Source: a bacterium | GTDB taxonomy: Bacteria > Chloroflexota > Dormibacteria > Dormibacterales > Dormibacteraceae | Assembly (NCBI GenBank): GCA_004299235.1 | Contig: SCQL01000027.1 | Coordinates: forward strand, 1-64,000 | DNA length: 64,000 bases | Direction: 5' to 3' | Shown: positions 38,647 to 56,830 of the stretch, piece after piece | Position numbering within the stretch: position 1 is the stretch's first letter | How the letters are laid out: the number at the start of each line of letters is the position of its first letter | Position numbers and translations under genes: made by a program | The notes under the pieces: generated by a model | Seen by the model: the letters and a program-made list of their open reading frames with translations, nothing else | Databases searched by the model: none | Told to the model about the DNA's origin: nothing

Positions 38647-38652
38647 TAACAT
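38647..38652 (+). promoter_or_regulatory. Putative -10 box TAACAT for pyrG
   Basis: About 25 bases upstream of ATG 38678. The short leader carries GGAGG at 38668-38672. Confidence 0.4.
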
Positions 38653-38677
38653 GGTTAAAACCGCCCTGGAGGTCTGC

Positions 38678-40330
38678 ATGTCGAAGTACGTTTTCGTGAC
38701 CGGGGGTGTCGTCTCCTCGCTTGGGAAGGGCATCACGGCGGCGTCGATCGGGAACATCCTGAAAGCCCGCCACCTCACCGTCTCCCTCCAGAAGCTCGAC
38801 CCGTACCTGAACGTGGACCCCGGCACGATGAGCCCGTACCAGCACGGCGAGGTGTTCGTCACCGACGACGGCGCCGAGACCGACCTCGACCTCGGGCACT
38901 ACGAGCGCTTCGTCGACGAGAACCTGACCGTCGCCTCCAACGTCACCACCGGCAAGATCTACCAGGAGGTCATCGCGCGCGAACGTCGAGGCGACTACCT
39001 CGGCGCCACCGTGCAGGTCATCCCCCACGTCACCAACGTGATCAAGGAAAAGATCCTCCGGGCGTCACGCGACCCGCAGGCCGATGCCGTCGTGGTCGAG
39101 GTGGGAGGCACCGTCGGCGACATCGAGAGCCTTCCGTTCCTCGAGGCGATCCGCCAGCTGAAGAACGACCTCGGCCGGCAGAACGTCTTTTACGTTCACT
39201 GCTCGCTGGTCCCGGTCGTCCACGGCCAGGAGATGAAGACCAAGCCGACCCAGCACTCGGTCCATGCCCTGCGCGCCATCGGCATTCAGCCCGACGCCAT
39301 CATCTGCCGTTCTGAGATCGCGATCGACGCCGACCTCAAGGAGAAGATCGCGCTGTTCTGTGACGTGCCGCGCGAGGCAGTCGTCTCGGTGCCCGACGTC
39401 GAGTCGATCTACGAGGTGCCGCTCATGCTCGAGGCCGCCGGACTCGGGAAGGTCATGGCCAAGCACTTCGAGCTCGACGAGACGGCGCATCTGCCGGACC
39501 ACGGGCCGTGGATCCAGCTGGTCCACCGCATCAAGCATCCGCGCGCGACGGTGCCCGTCGCCCTGGTCGGCAAGTACGTGGCGCTGCCTGACGCTTACCT
39601 GAGCGTCATCGAGTCGCTGCGGCACGCCGGCATCCACCACGGCCTGGACATCGAGATCCGCTGGGTCTCATCCGAGAAGCTGGACGCCGGCGACACCTCG
39701 CCGCTGATGGGCGTCGCCGGCATCGTGGTGCCCGGTGGCTTCGGGTACCGCGGCATCGAAGGCAAGGTGCAGGCGTCGCGATATGCGCGCCACAACCGCA
39801 TCCCATACCTCGGCCTGTGCCTCGGCATGCAGTGCGCGGTCATCGACTTCGCGCGTGAGGTCCTCGACGCGCCGGACGCCAACTCCACCGAGTTCGCGGC
39901 CTTCACCTCGACGCCGGTCATCGACCTGATGCCCGAACAGAGGAATGTCGACCAGATGGGGGCTTCGATGCGGCTCGGCCTGTACCCGTGCAAGCTGCTG
40001 CCCGGCTCGCTGGCGCACAGGGCCTACGGCGAAGAGGTCGTTTACGAGCGGCACCGCCACCGCTTCGAGTTCAACAACGAGTACCGCGAGTCGATGGGCG
40101 AGGCGGGCATGGTTTTCAGCGGCGTTTCGCCGAACGGCCGGCTGGTCGAGATCGTCGAGCTGGCCGACCACCCATGGTTCGTCGCCAGCCAGTTCCATCC
40201 CGAGTTCCGCTCGCGTCCGAACCGCGCGCACCCGCTCTTCCGTGACTTCGTGCGTGCGGCCTTCCTGCAGAGCGGTATCGACCAGATGGAGCTTCGCCCG
40301 GCCGAGCTGCTGGAAGAGACCGACAGCTAG
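38678..40330 (+). CDS. pyrG: CTP synthase
   Basis: Amidates UTP to CTP with glutamine. 550 residues. Synthetase domain begins [17 protein letters not shown] (P-loop) and contains the [13 protein letters not shown] and [13 protein letters not shown] blocks; the class I glutaminase domain has the nucleophile Cys in LGLCLGMQ and the His/Glu pair in QFHPEF. ATG 38678 with GGAGG five bases upstream is preferred to the upstream ATG 38651. The GlpX-like gene follows after 3 bp. Confidence 0.97.
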
Positions 40331-40333
40331 CAG

Positions 40334-41302
40334 GTGGAGCAGCAGAGAGGGGCGATCCCGTCGTTTCAGGCGCGCGCCGAGCTGTCGCTCGAGCTCGTGC
40401 ACGCCACGGAGGCGGCGGCGCTGGCCGCCGCGCGCCTGCTCGGCAAGGGCGATCCGGACCGGGTCAGCGAGGTCGCCGGAGAGGCGATGCGCGGCGTGCT
40501 CGAGGCCTCCAGCAGCTCGGGCACCGTCGTCCTCAGCCCGCGCAACGAGTCCTACCTCGCGCCGGGCACCGTCCTTGCCGGCGGCGACCGGCGGGTCGAC
40601 TTCGGGCTCTTTCCGGTCGAGGGGGCGAGCCAGGTCGCGCGCGGCGCCGCCAGCGCGGTTTCCGTGCTGGTCGCGGTCGAGCCGGGCGGCTTCGCCCAGC
40701 TGCCGGAGGTGTGGCATGTCGAGAAGATCGTCGCCGGCCCGGCGGCGCGCGGCGCGATCGATCTCGACGACCCGATCGCCGACAACCTTCGCCGCATCGC
40801 CTTCGCGCGCGACGCCCGCGTCCAGGACCTCACGGTGGCCATCCTCGACCGTCCCCGCCACCAGGACCTCATGGCCGAGGTCGCGGCCGCCGGCGCGCGA
40901 ATCCTCGCCCTCGGGGAGGGTGATTTCGCCGGCGCCGTCATGGCGGCCCTGCCCGGTACCGGGATCGACGCCGCGATCGGCATCGGCGACCTGCACGCAA
41001 CCCTGATCGCAGCCTGCGCGGTGCGGTGTCTGGGCGGTGAGCTGCAGGCGCGGCTGTGGCCCCGCAACGAGGAGGAGAGGCTCCTCATCGGGGACCAGGC
41101 GCCCCGGGTTTTCGGGGTTGCCGACCTGGCCCCGGCCGCCGAGGTCGCCGTCGCCATCACCGGCGTCAGTGGCGGCCAGCTCCTGCCGGGAGTGATGTTC
41201 GGGAGCGGCTACGCCGAAACCTCGTCGCTGCTCATGTCCAGCCGGCACGCCACCGTCCGGCGGCTGACCACCCGCCATCACGTGGCCGGGGACCCGAGCT
41301 AG
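40334..41302 (+). CDS. Class II fructose-1,6-bisphosphatase (GlpX) homologue with degenerate active site
   Basis: 322 residues aligning with GlpX over nearly its whole length: VHATEAAALAAAR, GKGD, EAMRGVLE, EKIVAGPAARGAIDL, TVAILDRPRH, CLGGELQARL. Three of the four metal-site motifs are replaced. GEGExDEAPML reads SPRNESYLAPGT (68-79), DPIEGT reads FPVEGA (93-98), and GGAPEG reads GDLHAT (218-223). Only the Asp in GKGD remains. The fold is probably kept but bisphosphatase activity is unlikely. It may have become a ligand sensor or regulator, possibly linked to pyrG beside it; this is inference. Confidence 0.85.
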   Translation: MEQQRGAIPSFQARAELSLELVHATEAAALAAARLLGKGDPDRVSEVAGEAMRGVLEASSSSGTVVLSPRNESYLAPGTVLAGGDRRVDFGLFPVEGASQVARGAASAVSVLVAVEPGGFAQLPEVWHVEKIVAGPAARGAIDLDDPIADNLRRIAFARDARVQDLTVAILDRPRHQDLMAEVAAAGARILALGEGDFAGAVMAALPGTGIDAAIGIGDLHATLIAACAVRCLGGELQARLWPRNEEERLLIGDQAPRVFGVADLAPAAEVAVAITGVSGGQLLPGVMFGSGYAETSSLLMSSRHATVRRLTTRHHVAGDPS

Positions 41303-41369
41303 CGGCAGGGCGGCACTCCGGCTGCCTGGATTAGGGAGCTCCGGGCCGGGGTATCACATACACGAGCAG

Positions 41370-42254
41370 ATGAACGATAAGGACGCCCTGACGCCGCCAC
41401 CGGGCGGGAGCTATATTCCCCCGCCCCCGAGCTTCCCTGTGTCCTCGGACATCCCGCCGCAGTCGCCGTACCACCACGCGCCGGCGCCGCCAAGCTCCAA
41501 CCGCGGCCTCATGGGCGGCCTGGGAGCCGTCCTCGCCGCGGCCTGGGCGTTCGTCAAGTTCGGGGGGATCCTGCTGTTCAAGATTCCGGCCCTGGGGACG
41601 CTGCTCTCGCTGGTGGTCAGCTTCGGCGGCTATGCGCTGTTCTACGGCCCCTGGTTCGCGGTCGGGCTGGTCGTGATGATCTTTGTGCACGAGATGGGAC
41701 ACGTGGTCGAGATCCGGCGCCAGGGCATGCAGGCGACGGCGCCGATCTTCATCCCGTTCATGGGCGCGGCCATCTTCCAGCGCTCACACCCCACCGACGC
41801 CCTCAAGCAGGCCCAGATCGGAATTGCGGGCCCCATCGCCGGCACCCTCGGCGCCACCGCCGCCTTCGTGCTCTACGGGTCGACGCACTCCCCGGTCCTG
41901 CTGCTCACGGCCCTCATCGGCTTCTACATCAACCTGTTCAACCTGATCCCGGTCTGGCAGCTGGACGGGGCGTGGATCCTCGCGCCGGTCTCGAAGTGGT
42001 TCCAGGTCGCGGGCTACGCGCTGATCGCGGCGGGCGCCCTGTTCCTGGGCTTCTTCAGCCCGCTGGTGATCATCATCGCCGTGCTCGGGATCCCGACTTT
42101 GATCCAGCGCTTCCGCGATGCCAACAACCCGTACTACACGTCGGTTTCCGCTCGCGGCCGGTGGGCCATGGGCGCCGCGTGGCTGGCCCTTGTCATCTAT
42201 CTCGGAGTCGCAAGCCTTCAGGCGAGCAGCTTGCTCGGTTCCTTCGCTCGCTAA
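41370..42254 (+). CDS. Site-2 protease-type membrane metalloprotease (M50)
   Basis: 294 residues. A Pro-rich cytoplasmic N-terminus (about 1-45) is followed by six or so helices. The zinc motif HEMGH is at residues 107-111 and the second motif, [10 protein letters not shown], lies two helices later. Intramembrane cleavage of regulators is the typical role; no substrate such as an anti-sigma factor is encoded nearby. The 67-bp gap upstream shows no clear promoter. Confidence 0.88.
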
Positions 42255-42257
42255 ACT
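42252..42257 (+). promoter_or_regulatory. Putative -10 box TAAACT for rpmE
   Basis: Overlaps the stop of the protease gene, 16 bases before TTG 42274; GGAG at 42265-42268 serves as ribosome binding site. Confidence 0.4.
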
Positions 42258-42273
42258 TTCCCATGGAGTTACT

Positions 42274-42483
42274 TTGAAAGCACAGATCCATCCCACCTAC
42301 TACGAGGACGCGGTCGTCACCTGCGTGTGCGGGAACACGTTCACGACCGGGTCGACGCGCAAAGAGCTCAAGACCGAGATCTGCTCCGTCTGCCACCCGT
42401 TCTTCACGGGCACCCAGCGGATCGTGGACACCGGCGGTCAGGTCGAGCGGTTCCGCAAGCGGGCTGCGAAGACCAGAGCGTAG
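42274..42483 (+). CDS. rpmE: Ribosomal protein bL31
   Basis: 69 residues, zinc-binding (C+) form: CVCGNTF and [10 protein letters not shown] supply four cysteines. Begins MKAQIHP, the family N-terminus, from a TTG with GGAG five bases upstream. Starts the conserved rpmE-DUF1385-prfA-prmC-tsaC-glyA run. Confidence 0.96.
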
Positions 42484-43488
42484 ATGGCCGTCCCGGAGGT
42501 AACCGCTCCGGAGACGGGGACTCCGCCCCACAACCTGGCGCCGGAGGCCGCTCCCGCGCCCGCGGCCCAGGCGCCCCGGAGCTCGGGCGGCGGGGCCGAG
42601 CCGTTTTTCTATGGCGGCCAGGCGGTCATCGAGGGCGTGATGATGCGCGGCAAGCGTCACTACGCGGTCGCCGTGCGCCTGCTGAACACGCATGAGATCG
42701 TCGTCGACCGCGGTGAGCTGAAAGCGTCCATCTACGTCAACCCGATCTGGAAGCTGCCCTTCATTCGCGGCCTCGCCCTCATCGGAGAGCAGCTGCACCT
42801 CGGGATGAAGTCTTTGATGTGGTCGGCCAACATGGCGGCCGGCGCCCAGGACGTCGAGATCAGCAAGAAGGAGATCGGCGGCTCGGTCGCGGTCGCGGGC
42901 GTGTTCGCGCTGGCGATCTTCATCGGCCTGCCTCTGCTCCTGGCGAGCGTCGCGGTCCACCGCAGCGGCAGCTTTCTCTTCGTCCTGGTCGAGGGCTTGA
43001 TCCGCGTCGGCCTGGTCCTCGGCTACCTGTCCGCGATCGCCCTGCTGCCAGATGTGCGTCGCGTCTTCCAGTACCACGGGGCGGAGCACAAGACGATTAA
43101 CGCGTTCGAATCGGGATGGCCCATCGACGTTCCGTCCGTGCGCCGCGCCAGCACCCTTCACCCGCGCTGCGGGACAGGGTTCCTGCTCGTCGTTCTCGTC
43201 GTCAGCGTGATCGTCTTCAGCGCCGTGGCGATCTTTCACCCGAACTGGTTCTGGCTCGTGCTGAGCCGGCTGCTTGCGATTCCGATCATCGCGGGCGCCG
43301 GGTTCGAGCTCATCCGGTTCATGGCGCGCCACCGCCACCACCCCGTGGTGCGCGTCATGCTGCTGCCGGTGCTGGGGACGCAGAAGTTCACCACGCGTGA
43401 GCCCTCCGACGACATGCTCGAGGTTGCGATCACCGCCTTCAACAGCGCCCGCCAGGGTGAGGAGGACACCGCCGGAGCGGCGGCGTGA
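42484..43488 (+). CDS. DUF1385 family membrane protein
   Basis: 334 residues. A Pro/Ala-rich start is followed by the hallmark GGQAVIEGVMMRGKRHYAVAVR and about four transmembrane helices, with FQYHGAEHKTINAFE and HPRCGTGFLL between them. The family is a conserved neighbour of prfA in Gram-positives and Chloroflexi and is of unknown biochemical function. Start directly after the rpmE stop; the stop overlaps the prfA GTG. Confidence 0.9.
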   Translation: MAVPEVTAPETGTPPHNLAPEAAPAPAAQAPRSSGGGAEPFFYGGQAVIEGVMMRGKRHYAVAVRLLNTHEIVVDRGELKASIYVNPIWKLPFIRGLALIGEQLHLGMKSLMWSANMAAGAQDVEISKKEIGGSVAVAGVFALAIFIGLPLLLASVAVHRSGSFLFVLVEGLIRVGLVLGYLSAIALLPDVRRVFQYHGAEHKTINAFESGWPIDVPSVRRASTLHPRCGTGFLLVVLVVSVIVFSAVAIFHPNWFWLVLSRLLAIPIIAGAGFELIRFMARHRHHPVVRVMLLPVLGTQKFTTREPSDDMLEVAITAFNSARQGEEDTAGAAA

Positions 43489-44555
43489 TCGACCGGCTCG
43501 AGGCGATGGCTCGCCGGTATCAAGAGATCGAGAACGAGATGGGGCGGCCGGAGGTCGCCTCGGATCACGCCCAGCTGACCAAGCTCGCGCGCGAGCAGCA
43601 CGCTCTGCGAGAGACCGTCCAGGCCTACGACGCATATCGCCGCGCACGCCAGGAGATCGAGTCGGCTCGGGAGCTGATCCGGCAGGAAAAAGACGCGGAG
43701 ATGCAGGAATATCTGCGGGCGGAGGAGCACCACGCCTCGGCCGAGCTCGGCGAGCTCGAGGAGAAGTTGAAAGTGCTGCTGCTGCCCAAGGACCCCAACG
43801 ACGAGCGCGACGTGGTGGTCGAGATCCAGGGCGCGGAGGGTGGGGAGGAGGCGGCGCTGTTCGCCGCCGACCTCTATCGCATGTACCAGAGGTGGGCGGA
43901 GCGCAAGGGCTGGAAGGTCGAGGTCGCGGACGTCTCGCCCAGCGACAAGGGCGGCTTTGACAAGATCGAGTTCGAGGTCCACGGCCACGGCGCTTATTCG
44001 CAGCTCAAGTACGAGGGCGGCGTGCATCGAGTGCAGCGCGTGCCGAAGACGGAGGCGCAGGGGCGCATTCACACGTCGGCGGCGACCGTCGCCGTCATGC
44101 CCGAGGCGGATCCCGTGGAGGTGGAGCTCAAACCCGAGGACATCGAGATCAAGACCTCGACGTCGACCGGCCCCGGCGGCCAGAGCGTGAACACCACGTA
44201 TTCGGCGATTCGCATCACGCACAAGCCGACCGGGATGGTGGTGAGCATCCAGGACGAGAAGTCTCAGCTCCAGAACAAGGAGAAGGCCCTGCGCGTGCTG
44301 CGGGCGAGGCTGTACGAGCTGAAGCTCGCCGAGCAGCAGGCCGCGATCGGCGCGCAGCGCCGCGGCATGGTGGGCAGCGGCAACCGGTCCGAGAAGATCC
44401 GCACCTACAACTTCAAAGAGAACCGGGTCACCGACCACCGGATCAAGCTCACGCTGCACAAGCTCGACCAGGTGATGGCGGGCGATCTCGACGAGCTGGT
44501 CACCGCCCTGGTCAACGCCGAGCGGGCGGCGCAGCTCGACGGCGCTCCCGCCTGA
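43485..44555 (+). CDS. prfA: Peptide chain release factor 1
   Basis: Releases peptides at UAA and UAG. 356 residues: coiled N-terminal domain, codon-recognition region with the tripeptide in [14 protein letters not shown] (PxT type), GGQ loop in [11 protein letters not shown]. The GGQ glutamine is the methylation target of PrmC encoded next. GTG start overlapping DUF1385. Confidence 0.96.
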
Positions 44556-44565
44556 CCCAGCTCCG

Positions 44566-45396
44566 TTGACTGTGCTCGAGGTCCTCAAACTGGCCTCGAA
44601 TCACCTGCACAAGCGCGGCTCGGATTCGGCTCGCCTGGATGCGGAGGTGCTGCTCGCGCACGCGCTGGGGGTGCGCCGGCTCGACCTCTACTTGCGGTTC
44701 GACCGGCCGCTGTCGGAAGCGGAGCTTGGACCGTATCGAGCCCTGGTGGCGCGCCGGGTTCGCGGCGAGCCGGTCGCGTACCTGGTCGGGCACAAGGAGT
44801 TCATGGCGCTGGACTTCGAGGTCACGCCCGCGGTCCTGGTGCCGAATCCGGACACCGAGGTCCTCGTCCAGCGTGCGGTGGCCCTGGCGCGCGAGTCCGG
44901 GCGGGCGCTTCGCGTCGCCGACGTCGGCACCGGCAGCGGCTGCATCGCCATCGCCGTCGCGCACTACGCGCCGGGTGTCGAGGTGTGGGCGGGCGACATC
45001 AGCGGCGCAGCGCTGGAGGTGGCGGCTGGCAACGTGGCCAAGCACGGGTTGGAGACGCGCGTCCATCTGGTCTGTGGCGATCTGATGGCGCCGCTGCCCG
45101 GGGCCTTCGACCTGGTCTGCGCCAACCTTCCCTACCTGGCGGCGGGATCCGAGCTGGCGCCGGAGGTGCTGGCGCAGCCGGCGCGAGCCCTGTATGCGGA
45201 GGCGGATGGCGCCGGGCTGGTAACGCGGCTATTGGCGGAGGCGCCGGCGCGGCTCAATCCCGGCGGCAGGGTGCTCGCGGAGGTCGACCCCTCAATCCTT
45301 GCGGTCGTTCTCGACGCGGCGGGCGGGCATTTTGGCGAGCACGTCGTGCACCGCGACCTTGGCGGCCACGAGCGGGTGCTGGAAGCATGGTCCTGA
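44566..45396 (+). CDS. prmC: Release factor glutamine methyltransferase PrmC
   Basis: SAM-dependent N5-glutamine methyltransferase for RF1/RF2. 276 residues. N-terminal helical domain, SAM motif VADVGTGSGCIAIA, and catalytic NLPY (in CANLPYL), a normal variant of NPPY. TTG start 10 bp after prfA. Overlaps tsaC by 10 bases. Confidence 0.94.
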   Translation: MTVLEVLKLASNHLHKRGSDSARLDAEVLLAHALGVRRLDLYLRFDRPLSEAELGPYRALVARRVRGEPVAYLVGHKEFMALDFEVTPAVLVPNPDTEVLVQRAVALARESGRALRVADVGTGSGCIAIAVAHYAPGVEVWAGDISGAALEVAAGNVAKHGLETRVHLVCGDLMAPLPGAFDLVCANLPYLAAGSELAPEVLAQPARALYAEADGAGLVTRLLAEAPARLNPGGRVLAEVDPSILAVVLDAAGGHFGEHVVHRDLGGHERVLEAWS

Positions 45397-45971
45397 AGCC
45401 GACGCGGGCCGGGCTCACGCGCGCCGCCCAGCTGATCCGCGGTGGGAGCGTGATCGCGTTCCCGACCGACACGGTCTACGGGCTGGGGGCGGCCGCGGAT
45501 GACGAGGTGGCGAGGCGCCGGGTCTACCAGATCAAGGGCCGGCCGGCCGGGCTGCCGCTCATCCTCATGGTCGCCGCCGAGTCGCAGCTGGAGGGCTGGG
45601 TGCACGTCGATTCGCGGGCAGAGGCGATGATCCGGCGCTGGTGGCCGGGACCGCTGACCTTGATCCTGCACGCCAAGGGCGGAGGCACGCTCGGGGTTCG
45701 CATTCCCAAGCACCAGGTCGCGCTCGACCTGCTCAGCGCCGCGGGGCCGCTGATGACGACCAGCGCGAACCTTCACGGTAAGGATCCGGCGATGACGGCG
45801 GAGGACGCGGGCGCGTTGCCGGGCGTGATGGTGGTGCTGGACGGGGGCGCGGCGCCAGGAGGCCTGGCGTCCACGGTGCTCGACCTCACCGGCCCCGAGC
45901 CGCACGTGCTGCGCGAAGGCGCCATCCCGACCTCCGAGCTGCTGGGTCCGCCACCCCCTCACGCCGGCTGA
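45387..45971 (+). CDS. L-threonylcarbamoyladenylate synthase (Sua5/YrdC/YciO family)
   Basis: First step of t6A tRNA modification: makes threonylcarbamoyl-AMP from Thr, bicarbonate and ATP. 194 residues with the YrdC signature IRGGSVIAFPTDTVYGLGA and the later WPGPLTLIL and TTSANLHGK blocks. No C-terminal Sua5 domain, so it is the short YrdC/TsaC form. ATG 45387 is used, not the longer open frame from 44985. Standard prfA-prmC-tsaC-glyA neighbourhood. Confidence 0.93.
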   Translation: MVLKPTRAGLTRAAQLIRGGSVIAFPTDTVYGLGAAADDEVARRRVYQIKGRPAGLPLILMVAAESQLEGWVHVDSRAEAMIRRWWPGPLTLILHAKGGGTLGVRIPKHQVALDLLSAAGPLMTTSANLHGKDPAMTAEDAGALPGVMVVLDGGAAPGGLASTVLDLTGPEPHVLREGAIPTSELLGPPPPHAG

Positions 45972-46001
45972 CGGCGCGCACGCCGACCGCCTGAGCCGAG
46001 A

Positions 46002-46007
46002 TAGGAT
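46002..46007 (+). promoter_or_regulatory. Putative -10 box TAGGAT for glyA (leaderless type)
   Basis: Ends six bases before ATG 46014, so there is no room for a leader RNA such as a riboswitch. Confidence 0.5.
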
Positions 46008-46013
46008 TCGCTC

Positions 46014-47288
46014 ATGGCCGCACCCATCACCACGATGACCTTTCGCGCCCTCGACCGCGACGATCCCGAGGTCGCCAACCTCATCCGCAAGGAGTTCAAG
46101 CGCCAGTCCGAGACGCTGGAGCTCATCGCGTCGGAGAACCTGACCAGCCCGGCGATCCTCGAGGCGCTGGGCACGCTCCTCACCAACAAGTACGCGGAGG
46201 GCTATCCCGGCCGGCGCTATTACGGCGGCACGGGGGAGGTGATCGACAAGATCGAGTCCCTGGCCGTGGAGCGGGCCAAGGAGCTGTTCGGCGCCGAGTA
46301 CGTGAACGTCCAGCCGCACGCCGGCTCGCAGGCCAACGCCGCCGTGTACATGGCCGTCTGCCAGCCGGGCGACCGGGTGATGGGGATGGACCTGTCCGCG
46401 GGCGGTCATCTGACCCACGGCAGCCCCGCGAACTTCAGCGGCAAGCTCTACGAGATCCATTCGTACGGCGTCGACCGCGAGACCGAGCTCATCGACTATG
46501 ACGCGATGGAGAAGCTGGCGGAGCGGGTGCGGCCCAAGATGATCCTGGGAGGCTTTTCGGCGTACTCTCGAATCGTCGACTGGGCGCGGATGCGACAGAT
46601 CGCCGACTCGGTCGGGGCGACGTTCTTTGTCGACATGGCGCATGTCGCCGGCCTGGTCGCGGGCGACCAGTACCCGTCACCGATTCCCTACGCGGACGTC
46701 ACGACCACGACGACGCAGAAGACGCTGCGTGGCGCCTGGGGCGCGATCATCCTGTGCCGCAACGAGTACCAGAAGGCGATCGACTCCGCGGTGTTTCCCG
46801 GCATCCAGGGCGGACCGCTGATGCACGCCATCGCGGCCAAGGCGGTGTGCTTCGGAGAGGCGCTGAGGCCGGAGTTCAAGGTCTACGCCAAGCAGGTGGT
46901 GGTGAACGCCAAGGCGCTGGCCGGCCGCCTCATGGAGCGGGGGCTGCGCCTGGTGAGCGGAGGCACCGACAACCACCTGATGCTCATCGACCTGCGCCCG
47001 CAGAAACGGACCGGGAAGCAGGTCCAGGAGGTGGCGGACACGGTCGGGATCACGCTCAACCGCAACTCGATCCCGTTCGACGAGGCGTCCAAGTTCAATC
47101 CCAGCGGCGTGCGCGTCGGCACCCCTCTGGTGACCACGCGCGGCATGCGCGAGGCGGAGATGGTGCAGATCGCCGACTGCATCGCCGACCTCGTCGAACG
47201 CATCGATGATCGCGCGGTGCTCGACTCCGTTCACGAGCGCGCGCTCGACCTATGCCGAAGGTTCCCGGTTCCCTACTCGTTCGACTGA
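46014..47288 (+). CDS. glyA: Serine hydroxymethyltransferase with unusual PLP-lysine context
   Basis: Interconverts serine and glycine with THF, feeding one-carbon metabolism. 424 residues; ELIASENLTS, NKYAEGYPGRRYYGG, VNVQPHAGSQAN and VDMAHVAGL are canonical. The PLP lysine is Lys236, but the near-invariant His before it is Gln235 and the next residues differ (TTTTQKTLRGAWGA in place of TTTTHKTLRGPRGG). Catalysis may still occur, though cofactor geometry could differ. Own promoter-like box. Confidence 0.95.
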   Translation: MAAPITTMTFRALDRDDPEVANLIRKEFKRQSETLELIASENLTSPAILEALGTLLTNKYAEGYPGRRYYGGTGEVIDKIESLAVERAKELFGAEYVNVQPHAGSQANAAVYMAVCQPGDRVMGMDLSAGGHLTHGSPANFSGKLYEIHSYGVDRETELIDYDAMEKLAERVRPKMILGGFSAYSRIVDWARMRQIADSVGATFFVDMAHVAGLVAGDQYPSPIPYADVTTTTTQKTLRGAWGAIILCRNEYQKAIDSAVFPGIQGGPLMHAIAAKAVCFGEALRPEFKVYAKQVVVNAKALAGRLMERGLRLVSGGTDNHLMLIDLRPQKRTGKQVQEVADTVGITLNRNSIPFDEASKFNPSGVRVGTPLVTTRGMREAEMVQIADCIADLVERIDDRAVLDSVHERALDLCRRFPVPYSFD

Positions 47289-47306
47289 GCTCTCGCGCTT
47301 CGACCG

Positions 47307-48416
47307 GTGAGTGACTTCGTCGGCGGCGACGCCCTCGTCAACCTGCGCGACCACCTGCTGCCCGGGCTGTGGCCGCTTCTGGTCGCGTTCGCGCTGTGCG
47401 CCCTCGTCGTCCCGGTCGCGATTCGCGTGTCTCGCCTGACGGGCTTGATCGCCGAACCCGGCGGGCGTCACTCGCACAGCAGGCCGACCCCACTGCTTGG
47501 CGGCCTCGCCATGTTCGCCGGCTTCGCGGTCGCGGTGCTCGTCTTCCTGCCCGGTTACCCGGAAACGCCAGGCGTGCTGGTCTCGTCGGGCCTGGCCGCA
47601 CTGCTGCTCATCGCCGACGACCGCTGGCCGGTCCGCCCCGCCATCAAGTTCGGCCTCCAGGCGTTCGTGGCCCTGCTCGCGGTGGTCGTCTTCGGCTTCA
47701 AGATCACGTTCCTGGGGCTGCCGGGGCAGCACGTCGTCCACCTCGGCCTGCTGATCACCCCGATCAGCCTCTTCTGGCTGCTGGGGATGCAGAACACCGT
47801 CAACTTCCTCGACGGCGTCGACGGGCTGGCCGCCGGCGTGATCTTCATCGTCGCGGTGACGCTGATGCTCGCGGCGGCCGGGCTCCGGCAGGTCGAGGTC
47901 GTGCAGCTCGGCGGCGCGCTGGCCGGCGCGTGCGCCGGCTTTCTGCTCTTCAACTTCCATCCCGCCCGCATCTTCATGGGCGACTCCGGCTCGCACTTCC
48001 TCGGCATGGCTCTGGGCGTCATCTCGATCCTGGGCGTGGCCAAGGTCGCTGTCGCCTTCGCCCTGGCGGTCCCTGTCCTCGCCCTGGCCCTGCCGATCGC
48101 GGACACCGCGTGGGCGATCCTGAGGCGGCGGCTCCAAAAGGCGTCGGTCGCCACCCCCGACCAGGAGCACCTCCACCACCGCCTCCAGGCGTTTGGGCTG
48201 GACCCGCGCCAGACCTGCTTCGTCTTCTATGCCGCGAGCGCTCTGCTGGGTGCGCTCGGGCTCACGCTCTTCGGCCACGGCAGGATCCTCGCGGTGGCCC
48301 TGGCGACCTCCGCGGCGCTCGCGTCGACCGTGGCCGCGGATCTTCTGCAGCGGACCGGCTGGCGCGTGCCCGCGTCCTACCTGCGCCGCCTGCTCGCCAC
48401 CCAGGGTTCCCGGTAG
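47307..48416 (+). CDS. Undecaprenyl-phosphate GlcNAc-1-phosphate transferase (WecA/TagO-like)
   Basis: MraY-superfamily membrane enzyme, 369 residues and about eleven helices, making the lipid-linked sugar primer of wall polymers. Key blocks: RHSHSRPTPLLGG, the DDR loop, NTVNFLDGVDGLAAG, FNFHPARIFMGDSGS and HLHHRL. It lies just upstream of the atp operon, an arrangement typical of actinobacteria. A WecG/TagA-type glycosyltransferase is encoded at 61 kb and could use its product. Confidence 0.9.
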   Translation: MSDFVGGDALVNLRDHLLPGLWPLLVAFALCALVVPVAIRVSRLTGLIAEPGGRHSHSRPTPLLGGLAMFAGFAVAVLVFLPGYPETPGVLVSSGLAALLLIADDRWPVRPAIKFGLQAFVALLAVVVFGFKITFLGLPGQHVVHLGLLITPISLFWLLGMQNTVNFLDGVDGLAAGVIFIVAVTLMLAAAGLRQVEVVQLGGALAGACAGFLLFNFHPARIFMGDSGSHFLGMALGVISILGVAKVAVAFALAVPVLALALPIADTAWAILRRRLQKASVATPDQEHLHHRLQAFGLDPRQTCFVFYAASALLGALGLTLFGHGRILAVALATSAALASTVAADLLQRTGWRVPASYLRRLLATQGSR

Positions 48417-48419
48417 AAT
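48414..48419 (+). promoter_or_regulatory. Putative -10 box TAGAAT for the atp operon
   Basis: Overlaps the wecA stop codon and ends ten bases before ATG 48430. Confidence 0.45.
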
Positions 48420-48429
48420 TCGGCGGGGC

Positions 48430-48642
48430 ATGGCGCCCACTCCGAGTGCGGGCCCGACGGGGGCTGACATGGCCGGAATCGGGGTCTATTTCGCAGCCGC
48501 GGTTCTTCTGCCGCTGCTCGGGGGAGTGGCGCTCGACAAGGCGCTGCACACGGCGCCGGTGTTCGTCCTGGTAGGACTGTTCGTGGGGCTTGCGGCCGGT
48601 GCGGCCGGGATCTGGTTGAAGGTAAGGGAGCTTTCGAAGTGA
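48430..48642 (+). CDS. AtpZ/AtpI-type small membrane protein of the ATP synthase operon
   Basis: 70 residues, two hydrophobic helices joined by a short loop (VYFAAAVLLPLLGGVALDKAL, then FVLVGLFVGLAAGAAGIWL). The layout matches the AtpZ/F1Fo-associated family at the head of many atp operons, proposed to help c-ring assembly or Mg/Ca movement. ATG 48430; ATG 48469 is a shorter alternative. Overlaps the next gene by four bases. Confidence 0.75.
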   Translation: MAPTPSAGPTGADMAGIGVYFAAAVLLPLLGGVALDKALHTAPVFVLVGLFVGLAAGAAGIWLKVRELSK

Positions 48643-48986
48643 CGTCGGGCGGGGTGCTCAAGGAAACGGTGGTGGCCTGTGCGGTCTGCGCCGCCGCGGT
48701 CGCGGTCATCGCGGCGGTGACGGGTCGACTGTCGCTTGGCATGGGCGTCGCGGCAGGGCTGCTGCTCGGTTCGCTCAACGGCTACCTGATAAGAGCGCTG
48801 CTCGACCGCCGCGCCCCCTTGGTCGCGGGGAGCCTGCTTCGCCTCCTCGCCTTCAGCGCGATCGTGGTCGGGGCGGCGCTGCTGCTCGGCCGCGCGGCGT
48901 GGACCCTGCCCCTTGGCATCGGCGTCGCTCAGCTGGTGATGGTCGCGGCCGGCTTGCGCCGGGGGCTCCGGGGGCTCCGCGCATGA
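48639..48986 (+). CDS. ATP synthase subunit I-like membrane protein
   Basis: 115 residues with four predicted helices and basic ends, in the place of AtpI between the AtpZ-like gene and atpB. AtpI acts as a c-ring assembly chaperone in several bacteria. Sequence similarity is weak, so the call rests mostly on position and topology. GTG start and stop both overlap their neighbours by four bases. Confidence 0.65.
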   Translation: MTSGGVLKETVVACAVCAAAVAVIAAVTGRLSLGMGVAAGLLLGSLNGYLIRALLDRRAPLVAGSLLRLLAFSAIVVGAALLLGRAAWTLPLGIGVAQLVMVAAGLRRGLRGLRA

Positions 48987-49762
48987 TCCGAGCCGATTTG
49001 GCCGGAACGCATCCCACCATCGACCTGGGATGCGGTGCTCTCTGCACGCTCAACTACGACAGCCTGATATCCAGCGGCATCGCGCTGGCGGCGACTCTGG
49101 CCGTGGCCCTCTGGGTGCGGTCCAAGCTCAAGGATGGCGAGCCCGGCCGGGTGCAGGCGATCTTCGAGTGGGGTTACGACCAGCTGCGCGGGCTCATCAG
49201 GAGCAATGTCTCCGAAGGGGCGCTCTTCATCCTGCCGCTGGCGATGACGCTCTTCCTCTACATCCTCATCGCCAACTGGATCGAGCTCTTGCCCCTGGGG
49301 CTCGTCCCCATCCTGCATGGCGCGAACGCGGACCTCAACCAGACGCTGGCGATGGCGCTCATCGTGATCGTGGTCGTGCAGTGGTACAGCATCCGCGTCC
49401 TCGGCCTGCGCGGTTATCTGGGGCGCTTCACCAAACCCTTCGAGCTGCCGCTGGCGGCTCGCATCGTCTTCATACCGCTTAACGTCCTCGAAGAGGCGGT
49501 GAAGCCGCTGACGCTGTCCCTGCGGCTTTTCGGCAACATCTTCGCGGGGGCGGTGATGATCGGCCTGATCGCTGGATTCGGTACCCTGGCCCTTCCAGCC
49601 GTGGGCACGATACCGGGGACGGTGGTCGGCTCGGTCTTGCTCGCCGTGTGGAAAGCGTTCGACGTCATCTTCATCGGTTTCATCCAGGCGTTCATCTTCA
49701 TGCTGCTAACGGTCATCTACTTCGGCGCGGCCCGCGAGGGTCTCGAACACGAACACCATTAG
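48983..49762 (+). CDS. atpB: ATP synthase Fo subunit a
   Basis: 259 residues, about six helices. Proton channel subunit; the essential Arg is in LTLSLRLFGNIFAG and the C-terminal helix carries AFIFMLLTVIYFG. ATG 48983 overlaps the previous gene. The atpE RBS begins at 49761, overlapping the stop. Confidence 0.95.
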   Translation: MIRADLAGTHPTIDLGCGALCTLNYDSLISSGIALAATLAVALWVRSKLKDGEPGRVQAIFEWGYDQLRGLIRSNVSEGALFILPLAMTLFLYILIANWIELLPLGLVPILHGANADLNQTLAMALIVIVVVQWYSIRVLGLRGYLGRFTKPFELPLAARIVFIPLNVLEEAVKPLTLSLRLFGNIFAGAVMIGLIAGFGTLALPAVGTIPGTVVGSVLLAVWKAFDVIFIGFIQAFIFMLLTVIYFGAAREGLEHEHH

Positions 49763-49771
49763 GAGGGTTTC

Positions 49772-50023
49772 ATGACAGATCACGGTCTCGTTCTCGCCGG
49801 CGCGCTGGTGGCTTTCGGCCTCGCCATCGGATTGGGCGCTATCGGCGCTGCGGTTGGCGACGGCCTCGCCGGCAATGCCTTCATCAGCGGCGTCGCACGG
49901 CAGCCTGAGGCCCAGGGCCGGATGATCCCCTGGCTCTTCACCATCGTCGGCCTGGTCGAGGCCATGTACTTCATCAACCTGGCCTTCGGCTTCGTGTTCC
50001 TGTCGAACGTCCCCGCCAAGTAA
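49772..50023 (+). CDS. atpE: ATP synthase Fo subunit c
   Basis: 83 residues, hairpin of two helices joined by the polar loop RQPE. The ion-binding carboxylate is the Glu in GLVEAMYF. The first helix lacks the Gln needed for sodium binding, so proton coupling is expected. Preceded by a perfect AGGAGG (49761-49766), the strongest RBS of the operon, as expected for the highest-stoichiometry subunit. Confidence 0.96.
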
Positions 50024-50545
50024 ATGCTGTTTCTCGCCGGCGTCGCGGGCGTCATCCAGATCGACGGGACGGTGATCGTCGAGCTGATCACCTTCCTCGT
50101 CATGCTCGCCGTGCTCGCCCGCTGGGTGTATCCGGAGATCGTGAGGCTGGCGGAGGCGCGCCAGCGCGTCATCGCCGAGCAGCTGAAGGAGGCCGAGCAG
50201 GCGCGCGCCGACGCGGCGGCATACCTCAATGAGGCCGAGGTCAAGCTCAACGACGCCCGCAAGACGGCGCAAGGGCTGATCGACGCGGCCGGCAAGTCAG
50301 GCGATCAGCTCCGCCAGGAGCTGAGGCAGAAGGCTGAAGAGGAAGCCCGGCGGATCGCCGAAGCGGCGCGCAAGGAGATCGAAGCCGAGCGCGATCGGGC
50401 CGTGCTGTCGGTGCGGAACGAGGTCGCGGGGCTGGTCGTGTCGGCGACCGAGAAGGTCATCGGCGAAACCCTCGACGACGCGAAGCACCGCCGGCTCATC
50501 GAGCGGGCCATAGCGGAGGTTGCTGGTGGCGACGGCAGCAGCTAG
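50024..50545 (+). CDS. atpF: ATP synthase Fo subunit b
   Basis: 173 residues: one N-terminal membrane helix (about 12-34) then a long charged coiled coil forming the peripheral stalk, rich in Ala, Glu, Arg and Lys. ATG follows the atpE stop with no gap. Overlaps atpH. Confidence 0.93.
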   Translation: MLFLAGVAGVIQIDGTVIVELITFLVMLAVLARWVYPEIVRLAEARQRVIAEQLKEAEQARADAAAYLNEAEVKLNDARKTAQGLIDAAGKSGDQLRQELRQKAEEEARRIAEAARKEIEAERDRAVLSVRNEVAGLVVSATEKVIGETLDDAKHRRLIERAIAEVAGGDGSS

Positions 50546-51056
50546 GCGGTATGCGAAGGCCGTCTTCGAGCTGGCTCAGCAGGAGGGCCAGGTAGCGGCG
50601 TGGAGCCGCCGGGTGTCGAAGGTCGGTGAGCTCCTGTCAGATCCCCAGGTGGCTGCCGTGCTCACCAACCCGACGATCGCCGCAGACCGGCGGATGGAGC
50701 TCGTATCCGTGGACGCGGCCCTGCTCGACGCTGAGGCCGTCAACCTCGCCAAGCTGCTCATCGAGTCGAATCGGGTCCAGGACGTCGGCGCGATCGCCAA
50801 AGAGTACGAGCGGCTCGCCGACGCGGCCGCCGGCCGCGTCCGCGCCACGGTTACAACCGCCGTCGAGCTGGCGCCGGCGGACCGCGACCGCGTCGCGGGT
50901 GAGCTCTCGAAACGCCTCGGTAAGGAAGTCCGCCTGGAGGTCGTCACCGACCCGCAAATCCTGGGCGGCATGAAGCTCCAGTACGGCGATCGCCTCGTCG
51001 ACGCCAGCGTCTCAACCCGATTACAGCAGCTGCGCCGCCGTCTGGCGGCCTCGTAG
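50526..51056 (+). CDS. atpH: ATP synthase F1 subunit delta
   Basis: 176 residues. The N-terminal helical domain begins [18 protein letters not shown], and the C-terminal signature [21 protein letters not shown] is present. Links F1 to the b subunit. GTG 50526 gives the family N-terminus; TTG 50520 is two codons longer. Overlaps atpF by 20 bases. Confidence 0.94.
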
Positions 51057-51067
51057 GAGTAAGCCAA

Positions 51068-55077
<4,010 letters not shown>

Positions 55078-55079
55078 AC

Positions 55080-55484
55080 ATGCGGGTACCGCTGCGGGTC
55101 GTGAGCGTGGAGCGCAGCCTCTTCGAGGGGGATGTCGACTTCATCGTCGCCAACGGCGCCGACGGCGAGCTCGGCGTCCTGCCGCGCCATGCTCCGCTCA
55201 TGACCATCCTCAAGCCCGGAGCGCTCAAGATCACCCAGGGCTCGGAAGAGCAACTGCTCTTCGTCGGCGGCGGGTTTCTTGAAGTGCTGCCGGATCGCGT
55301 GACCGTGCTCGCCGACGTTGCCGAGCACGCCGATGAGATCTCGGTCGAGCGCGCGGAAGAGGCGCGCAAGCGTGCGCAGGAACGACTGGCTGGAACGCTC
55401 ACCACGGCCGAAGAGGTCGAGTTCCAGCAGGCGCTGGCGATGGCGGAAGCGCGCCTTCGCCTCGCGCGCATGCGCCGACCCTGA
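55080..55484 (+). CDS. atpC: ATP synthase F1 subunit epsilon
   Basis: 134 residues: N-terminal beta sandwich with GELGVLPRHAPLMT, then two C-terminal helices that can inhibit ATP hydrolysis. ATG two bases after the atpD stop. Last gene of the operon; no clear terminator follows. Confidence 0.94.
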   Translation: MRVPLRVVSVERSLFEGDVDFIVANGADGELGVLPRHAPLMTILKPGALKITQGSEEQLLFVGGGFLEVLPDRVTVLADVAEHADEISVERAEEARKRAQERLAGTLTTAEEVEFQQALAMAEARLRLARMRRP

Positions 55485-55495
55485 TCCAAGCCGGT

Positions 55496-55501
55496 TACGT
55501 T
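55496..55501 (+). promoter_or_regulatory. Putative -10 box TACGTT for murA
   Basis: Six bases before TTG 55508 and nine before ATG 55511, in the 26-bp gap after atpC. Confidence 0.35.
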
Positions 55502-55510
55502 TAGGTCTTG

Positions 55511-56830
55511 ATGAAGACCCGCACGCCTCGTCGCGAGCACGCGCTGCAGATCACCGGCGGGAGGCAGATTGCAGGCTCGATCTGCATCAGCGGATCCAAG
55601 AACGCCGCCCTGCCCGAGATGGCCGCCGCGCTGCTCACCACCGAGCCGCTCACCCTCCACAACGTGCCCAAGGTGACGGACACCCAGCTGATGGCGGAGA
55701 TCCTGACCGTCCTCGGCGGTAGCAGCGAGGGCATGGGCTCGGTCGTGCTCCGCATGGCGGGCGCGCGGGCCAGTGACGTCCCCGACGGCCTCGGCCGGCG
55801 GATGCGCGCGACGATCGTGCTGCTCGGCGCGCTCCTCGGACGCTTCGGGCACGCCCGCGTTCCTCGACCGGGCGGCGACGACATCGGTGCGAGGCGCTTC
55901 GAGCAGCACCTGCGCGGGCTGCAGCAGATGGGCGCGCACATCACCGAAACGCAGACGGAGATCGTCGCCGAGGTGGATCGCCTGCGCGGCGGGCGGATCG
56001 TCTTCGACCTGCCGACCGTGACCGGCACGGAGAACATCCTGCTCGCGGCGGTGCTGGCGCAGGGGCGGACCGAGATCTTCAACGCCGCGCGCGAGCCCCA
56101 TGTCCAGGACCTGTGCCGCCTGCTGGGAAAGATGGGGGCGCGGATCGAAGGCATCGGCACCGAGCGCCTGGTCGTCGACGGCGTTCGCGAGCTCGGTGGC
56201 GCAGAGCACACGGTCATCGCCGACTACCTGGAGGCGGGCACCTATGCCATTGCGGTGGCGGCGGCCGGCGGCGAGCTGCGCATCGACTGCAGCCGGCCGG
56301 AGGACCTCAAGATCGTGCTGCTCAAGCTCGAACTGGCCGGCGCCCGCGTCGAGGTGGGGGATGGCTGGTTTCGAGTGGGACGCCGGCCGCGGACGCGGAT
56401 CAAGCCCATCGACATGTCGACGTGGACGTTTCCAGGATTCCCCACCGATCTGCAGGCGCAATACATGGCGCTGATGACACAGGCGGACGGCGAGACGGTA
56501 ATCTCCGAGTACGTCCACGAGAACCGCTTCCAGCACGTGACGCAGCTCGCCAAGATGGGGGCGGGGATCGCGGTCGAGGGGAGGATCCACGCCATGGTGC
56601 ACGGCCCGTGCCGCCTTCGAGGCACCGAGGTCGCCATCCCCGACATCCGATCCGGCGCCGCCCTGGTCGTCGCCGCGCTCTGCGCCGAAGGCGAGAGCGT
56701 GCTCCGAAACGCCTGGCACGTCGAGCGCGGCTACGAGGACATGGCGGGCAAGCTCGCATCGGTCGGCGCCCAGGTCAAGACGATCACCGTCGACCCGGAC
56801 CCAGCCGGCTCAGATCACTCCTACGAATGA
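55511..56830 (+). CDS. murA: UDP-GlcNAc 1-carboxyvinyltransferase MurA with Cys-to-Asp active site
   Basis: First committed step of peptidoglycan synthesis, adding enolpyruvate to UDP-GlcNAc. 439 residues. The SGSKNAALP block and catalytic Asp in FPTDLQAQY are conserved. The loop Cys (Cys115 in E. coli, the fosfomycin target) is replaced: PGGDDIGAR in place of PGGCAIGAR. Asp here is known in naturally fosfomycin-resistant MurA. ATG 55511 is used; the adjacent TTG 55508 is possible. mreB follows after 6 bp. Confidence 0.95.
   Translation: MKTRTPRREHALQITGGRQIAGSICISGSKNAALPEMAAALLTTEPLTLHNVPKVTDTQLMAEILTVLGGSSEGMGSVVLRMAGARASDVPDGLGRRMRATIVLLGALLGRFGHARVPRPGGDDIGARRFEQHLRGLQQMGAHITETQTEIVAEVDRLRGGRIVFDLPTVTGTENILLAAVLAQGRTEIFNAAREPHVQDLCRLLGKMGARIEGIGTERLVVDGVRELGGAEHTVIADYLEAGTYAIAVAAAGGELRIDCSRPEDLKIVLLKLELAGARVEVGDGWFRVGRRPRTRIKPIDMSTWTFPGFPTDLQAQYMALMTQADGETVISEYVHENRFQHVTQLAKMGAGIAVEGRIHAMVHGPCRLRGTEVAIPDIRSGAALVVAALCAEGESVLRNAWHVERGYEDMAGKLASVGAQVKTITVDPDPAGSDHSYE

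Follow-up and report, generated by a model that had tools for sequence, protein, structure and literature searches.

Introduction

GlpX is the class II fructose-1,6-bisphosphatase (FBPase), and active GlpX paralogues are already known. E. coli YggF is an active-type second GlpX copy, and the plasmid-borne GlpX of B. methanolicus (pBM20, L234) is also a second copy; its catalytic residues are kept (DEDDTYRRDDE), unlike those of the gene described here. In two solved class II enzymes, the nucleophilic Thr is essential: the T84A variant of M. tuberculosis GlpX is inactive (PMC5892879), and so is the T89A variant of F. tularensis GlpX (PMC10289334). A precedent, and a precedent only, for a non-metabolic role within the superfamily is SuhB, which has the inositol monophosphatase fold; in E. 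coli it is a component of the complex for rRNA antitermination, where it acts together with Nus factors (PMC4807359, PMC6614801).

Here, we analyzed a 64,000-nucleotide stretch of DNA (the window; contig SCQL01000027.1) from a member of the Dormibacteria (Candidatus Dormibacterota), an almost uncultured group of soil bacteria. The window carries a GlpX homologue, glpX*, directly behind the CTP synthase gene pyrG. Our search for a GlpX pseudoenzyme in open-access papers found none on point, which is weak evidence of absence.

Results

glpX* belongs to the GlpX family by sequence and fold

The open reading frame of glpX* occupies exactly positions 40334-41302 of the forward strand, begins with GTG, and encodes a 322-residue, catalytically degenerate GlpX paralogue (annotated from PF03320, TIGR00330, and an AlphaFold2 model). 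The start call is supported by relatives, which open at the same "MEQQR" with either ATG or GTG; a wrong start codon or frame was rejected on this ground.

We searched the protein against GlpX family profiles. It matched PF03320 over residues 16-315 with 268.4 bits (cut-off 27) but reached only 205.4 bits against the NCBI equivalog TIGR00330, whose cut-off is 259.3. The best match among solved GlpX enzymes was M. tuberculosis GlpX (E 2.9e-56), in agreement with an earlier note, made from the letters alone, that had claimed GlpX homology along the whole length. The same note had described the framework as intact, consistent with an AlphaFold2 model of mean pLDDT 92.8 that superposed on M. tuberculosis GlpX (6ayv) with a TM score of 0.90, Z 44.3, and an rmsd of 1.4 over 304 residues at 37-38% identity. 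The closest named contigs carrying glpX* were Dormibacteraeota MAGs, at 78-82% identity.

Compared with the class II enzymes of M. tuberculosis, E. coli, and F. tularensis, glpX* shares the full-length fold, the Arg pair that binds the 6-phosphate, and the furanose-contact motif; unlike them, it has replacements at every one of the four ligands of its two-metal site as well as at the Thr nucleophile, and it scores below the equivalog cut-off. By sequence and fold, glpX* is a member of PF03320, and because defining features of the enzyme were absent when tested, we place it outside class II FBPase as an enzyme.

The catalytic site is replaced while the sugar-phosphate contacts are kept

We took the roles of the GlpX active-site residues from PMC5892879 and PMC10289334 and used M. 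tuberculosis (Mt) numbering. At Mt D27, E51, D79, D82, T84, Y114, R159, R161, D181, D183, and E208, the window copy has S, P, F, E, A, H, R, R, E, D, and A, respectively. All features below lie on the forward strand. Ser45 (40466-40468) takes the place of the metal ligand Asp27 (Asp33 in E. coli; role as in PMC5892879). The GEGEK loop reads SPRNE (40535-40549), with Pro69 for the ligand Glu51, followed by Arg70. The DPI(E/D)GT motif reads FPVEGA (40610-40627), so that Asp79 becomes Phe93 and the nucleophile Thr84 becomes Ala98 (T84A), and GGxPE reads GDLHA (40985-40999), with Ala222 for the ligand Glu208. The two-metal site has thus lost each of its four ligands (D27S, E51P, D79F, and E208A). 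The fifth metal ligand, Asp82, is the sole survivor, kept as Glu96.

The three replaced motifs are as the earlier note quoted them (SPRNE---SYLAPGT, FPVEGA, and GDLHAT). Its statement that three of four metal ligands are missing was right about the loss and too low in the count, since none of the four listed in PMC5892879 remains.

The contacts to the 6-phosphate and the furanose are retained. Mt R159, R161, and D183 correspond to R173, R175, and D197; by our alignment, Arg173-Pro-Arg175 (40850-40858) is the 6-phosphate anchor, and Glu195-Gly-Asp197 (40916-40924) is the motif contacting the furanose hydroxyls (Mt Asp181/Asp183). In an alignment of 46 paralogues and 17 canonical GlpX proteins (A1), both 6-phosphate Arg residues were invariant in all 63 sequences. 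Among glpX* copies, Arg159 and Arg161 were present in 50 of 50, and Asp183 in 45 of 50, with Glu in the remainder. Tyr114 of the 6-phosphate pocket is less constant: the window copy has His there, and roughly half of the copies from family f1 have Gln or His. Judged from these residues, glpX* is very probably dead as an FBPase, and the chances that it binds a sugar phosphate seem to us about even.

The degenerate copy forms one ancient clade under purifying selection

A second, low-scoring PF03320 copy was present in 53 of the 61 genomes of the class that we examined. Tallied from profile matches, glpX* occurs in 34/37 genomes of family f1, 8/8 of f2, 11/12 of f3, and 0/4 of f4. The copies of f1, f2, and f3 formed one clade (SH-aLRT 99), placed beside the canonical copies of f3 with a support of 86 in trees that were midpoint-rooted only. 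The degenerate second copy is ancient, and a sequence error or one-off was rejected, as the motifs are lost throughout the orthologous group.

Active-site loss was graded across the families. In the order Mt D27 to E208 given above, the residues are R E K D S Y R R D D E in f3, R P L/other D V/I/A Y R R D D E in f2, and S/R P Y/F E A Y/Q R R E/D D A/E in f1. Glu208 persists in f2 and in some f1 sequences, Glu51 and Glu208 persist together with a Ser at position 84 in the majority of f3 sequences, and genus g99 (family f2) retains Asp79. Because of these retained residues, some metal binding may persist in f2, some f1, most f3, and g99 copies.

In six genome pairs from f1 and f3, the dN/dS of glpX* was 0.05-0.19, indicating purifying selection; in the same genomes, the values were 0.04-0.08 for canonical glpX and 0.03-0.08 for pyrG, and glpX* was higher on the whole. 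Internal stops were found in none of the full copies. With catalytic residues lost group-wide, an active-type paralogue, and purifying selection, glpX* is a pseudoenzyme as read from its sequence, and it very probably has a preserved function. The view that it is a preserved pseudoenzyme rather than a product of random decay had been put forward from the window alone; it gains from the single clade spanning three families, the intact second glpX, dN/dS far below 1, the invariant Arg pair, and the open frames. With its graded loss of the active site and its sugar grip kept, this group lends itself to testing how a phosphatase that needs metal turns into a binding protein that does not.

Basic residues occupy or flank former metal-ligand positions

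We then examined the 79 positions at which canonical GlpX has an invariant, non-basic residue, looking in each family for a fixed basic one. Family f1 had one, the Arg at Mt 52 of the GEGE loop (29/29 copies; Arg70 in the window). Family f2 had two, Arg at Mt 27 (8/8) and another at a site that is not among the metal ligands (E79R in window numbering). Family f3 had two as well, Arg/Lys27 and Lys79 (9/9 each). Canonical GlpX had none of these basic replacements. The gain of charge extends beyond the metal site, given that E79R in f2 lies away from the ligands. Each family carries a positive charge at the position of a lost ligand or next to one, suggesting that side chains may have taken over from the cations; we infer the nearness of the new residues to the old metal sites from alignment columns.

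The best explanation in our view, to which we give a probability of roughly 0.55, is that glpX* is a preserved, metal-free, sugar-phosphate-binding pseudoenzyme with a signaling output; it is probably a sensor or regulator and not an enzyme. This branch of class II FBPase would have arisen once, in Dormibacteria. The Arg-Pro-Arg and xGD motifs would still hold a hexose phosphate by its 6-phosphate and its sugar ring; fructose 6-phosphate, fructose 1,6-bisphosphate, or a relative are candidates. The fixed Arg or Lys at the former divalent-metal places would supply positive charge, such that the ligand is bound without metal and left uncleaved. Ligand-bound glpX* might then act as a signal to, or an allosteric partner of, a protein of central metabolism or one encoded in the same operon. 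Should a sugar-phosphate sensor be confirmed, it would be the first regulatory GlpX branch known to us.

glpX* is mostly coupled tightly to pyrG, in what is probably an old glpX slot

pyrG (38651-40330, forward strand; PF06418 and PF00117) ends 3 bp upstream of glpX*, as first noted from the window. Downstream, on the same strand, lies a conserved block of an M50-family metalloprotease gene (41370-42254; PF02163), rpmE for ribosomal protein L31 (42268-42483; called by synteny and its resemblance to the Pfam-confirmed L31 of L232), a DUF1385 gene (42484-43488; PF07136), prfA for release factor 1 (43485-44555; PF03462/PF00472), and prmC (44566-45396; PF17827), followed by sua5, glyA, and a wecA-like gene. 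Within f1, the order argS-MBL-pyrG-glpX*-M50-rpmE-DUF1385-prfA-prmC recurs in most genomes. The gap between pyrG and glpX* is 3-20 nt in most f1 genomes, and in 10 of 11 f3 genomes the two genes overlap by a 4-nt GTGA. In f2 the link is looser, with about 1.35 kb between the genes in L046, L048, and L051 and an inverted arrangement in L045. A readthrough fusion of pyrG and glpX*, which share a frame in the window, was rejected because the frame relation differs among relatives.

In Acetoanaerobium (L232), a member of the Clostridia, a pair of active-type glpX genes precedes rho, rpmE, tdk, DUF1385, prmC, prfA, and sua5, with a wecA-like gene farther on. We took this order from the Acetoanaerobium record; no paper was found for a ywjI-rho-rpmE order in B. 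subtilis. From pyrG to murA (38651-56830; pyrG-glpX*-M50-rpmE-DUF1385-prfA-prmC-sua5-glyA-wecA-atp genes-murA), the window partially matches L232, with M50 at the place of rho. We infer that glpX* sits in an old glpX slot common to the Clostridia superoperon. Within this comparison, glpX adjoins pyrG in Dormibacteria only.

Because glpX* is probably co-translated with pyrG, CTP synthase is a candidate partner, although a doubtful one. A direct reading is that glpX* regulates or scaffolds CTP synthase, tying CTP supply to the hexose-phosphate level. Adjacency and likely translational coupling in f1, f3, and part of f2 speak for it, as does the persistence of the coupling in g99, where canonical GlpX is missing. 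Against it, the slot upstream of rpmE-DUF1385-prfA-prmC-sua5-wecA holds an active-type glpX in the Clostridia genome, so that the position of glpX* may be inherited; the two genes are separated, or on opposite strands, in the four f2 genomes named above; and f4 has pyrG without glpX*. We consider such direct regulation fairly unlikely, and less probable still is the more specific version in which a metal-free fructose-phosphate sensor, with Arg and Lys side chains replacing the catalytic divalent cations and made in step with CTP synthase, tunes pyrimidine nucleotide synthesis to the gluconeogenic sugar-phosphate pool. Overall, the conserved tight spacing supports co-expression, as the earlier note had proposed, over a shared function; the role with CTP synthase that it also proposed draws on the adjacency and is weakened by the old glpX slot and by the f2 arrangements.

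Canonical GlpX and genomes with a single copy

The genome of the window carries a separate, intact glpX (C1:87532-88455; L052), which scored 423 bits against PF03320 and passed TIGR00330 with 349.2 bits. This canonical protein belongs to the same family as glpX* and is about 38% identical to it; it differs in having intact D27, E51, D79, E82, T84, and E208 and in being unlinked to pyrG. Both copies coexist in f1, f3, and most of f2, and outside genus g99 a canonical copy accompanies glpX* in all but a few incomplete assemblies. Neither the window genome nor g99 yielded a class I or class V FBPase as a replacement, with no match to PF00316 or PF01950; a PFK-family gene is present.

All six genomes of g99 (G173-G178; L239-L244), which are 67-89% complete, had only glpX*, coupled to pyrG and with R, A, D, D, and V at Mt 27, 51, 79, 82, and 84; neither canonical GlpX nor a PF00316 or PF01950 match was detected in them. 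By our own arithmetic (the product of the missing fractions), the chance that random gaps removed the canonical gene from all six is about 7e-5, so assembly gaps alone are an improbable cause. Conversely, f4 keeps canonical GlpX, and its pyrG locus continues to rpmE without glpX*.

Pseudoenzyme paralogues of oligomeric enzymes often act as inactive subunits, and glpX* could likewise be an inactive subunit or decoy in mixed tetramers with canonical GlpX, tuning its activity. The GlpX enzymes known so far form 222 homotetramers (PMC5892879), glpX* has kept the fold and framework, and the two copies usually occur together. However, the INDEPENDENCE of the two copies, with the dead copy alone in g99 and the live copy alone in f4, indicates that glpX* is not an obligate GlpX subunit. 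A mixed tetramer therefore cannot be the general answer, and we regard it as unlikely.

Automatic annotation would name both copies GlpX and credit a gluconeogenic FBPase to genomes, such as those of g99, that may lack any.

A new activity, an RNA-related role, and decay

It is quite improbable that glpX* is a neofunctionalized enzyme with metal-independent sugar-phosphate chemistry, for example an isomerase or a phosphatase with another nucleophile. The sugar and 6-phosphate pocket is kept, the 1-phosphate site has been rebuilt with family-specific fixed residues, and most f3 copies have a Ser at the nucleophile position. However, a shared catalytic site would be expected to be uniform, and the replaced site differs between families (Pro/Arg/Phe/Ala in f1, Arg/Pro/Leu/Val in f2, and Arg/Lys/Ser in f3).

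By analogy with SuhB, glpX* might instead bind protein or RNA as a factor of the transcription or translation machinery, with sugar binding as a relic. SuhB shares the fold distantly (Z ~12), without a family-level sequence relationship, and acts with Nus factors (PMC4807359, PMC6614801), and glpX* lies among translation genes, where rho adjoins glpX in the Clostridia genome. However, contact with RNA or RNA polymerase has no positive support, and the strict retention of Arg159 and Arg161 in all copies would go unexplained; we consider this reading very unlikely. That glpX* is a decaying gene held by its place in an essential operon is hardly credible, for although it evolves faster than canonical glpX, its dN/dS is far below 1, its frame is open in every full copy, and its pocket residues are invariant over deep divergence.

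Other divergent GlpX copies

Families f15, f33, and f36 of the phylum also carry a second GlpX-like copy (L204, L220, L224, L250, L251, L252, L253, and L254), in which the nucleophilic Thr is replaced by Arg (DPIDGR) in 8/8 sequences. The metal ligands are mostly kept in these copies, and this loss of the nucleophile is separate from, and apparently independent of, that in glpX*. A further divergent copy (L226 11384-12424; G131) has N, G, and F at Mt 27, 181, and 183 and keeps the Thr nucleophile. Finally, canonical GlpX of f1 (L001/L052) has Ala or Gly at Mt Asp181, a sugar-hydroxyl contact, in 8 and 2 of 13 sequences, respectively; judging by this position, its substrate preference may differ.
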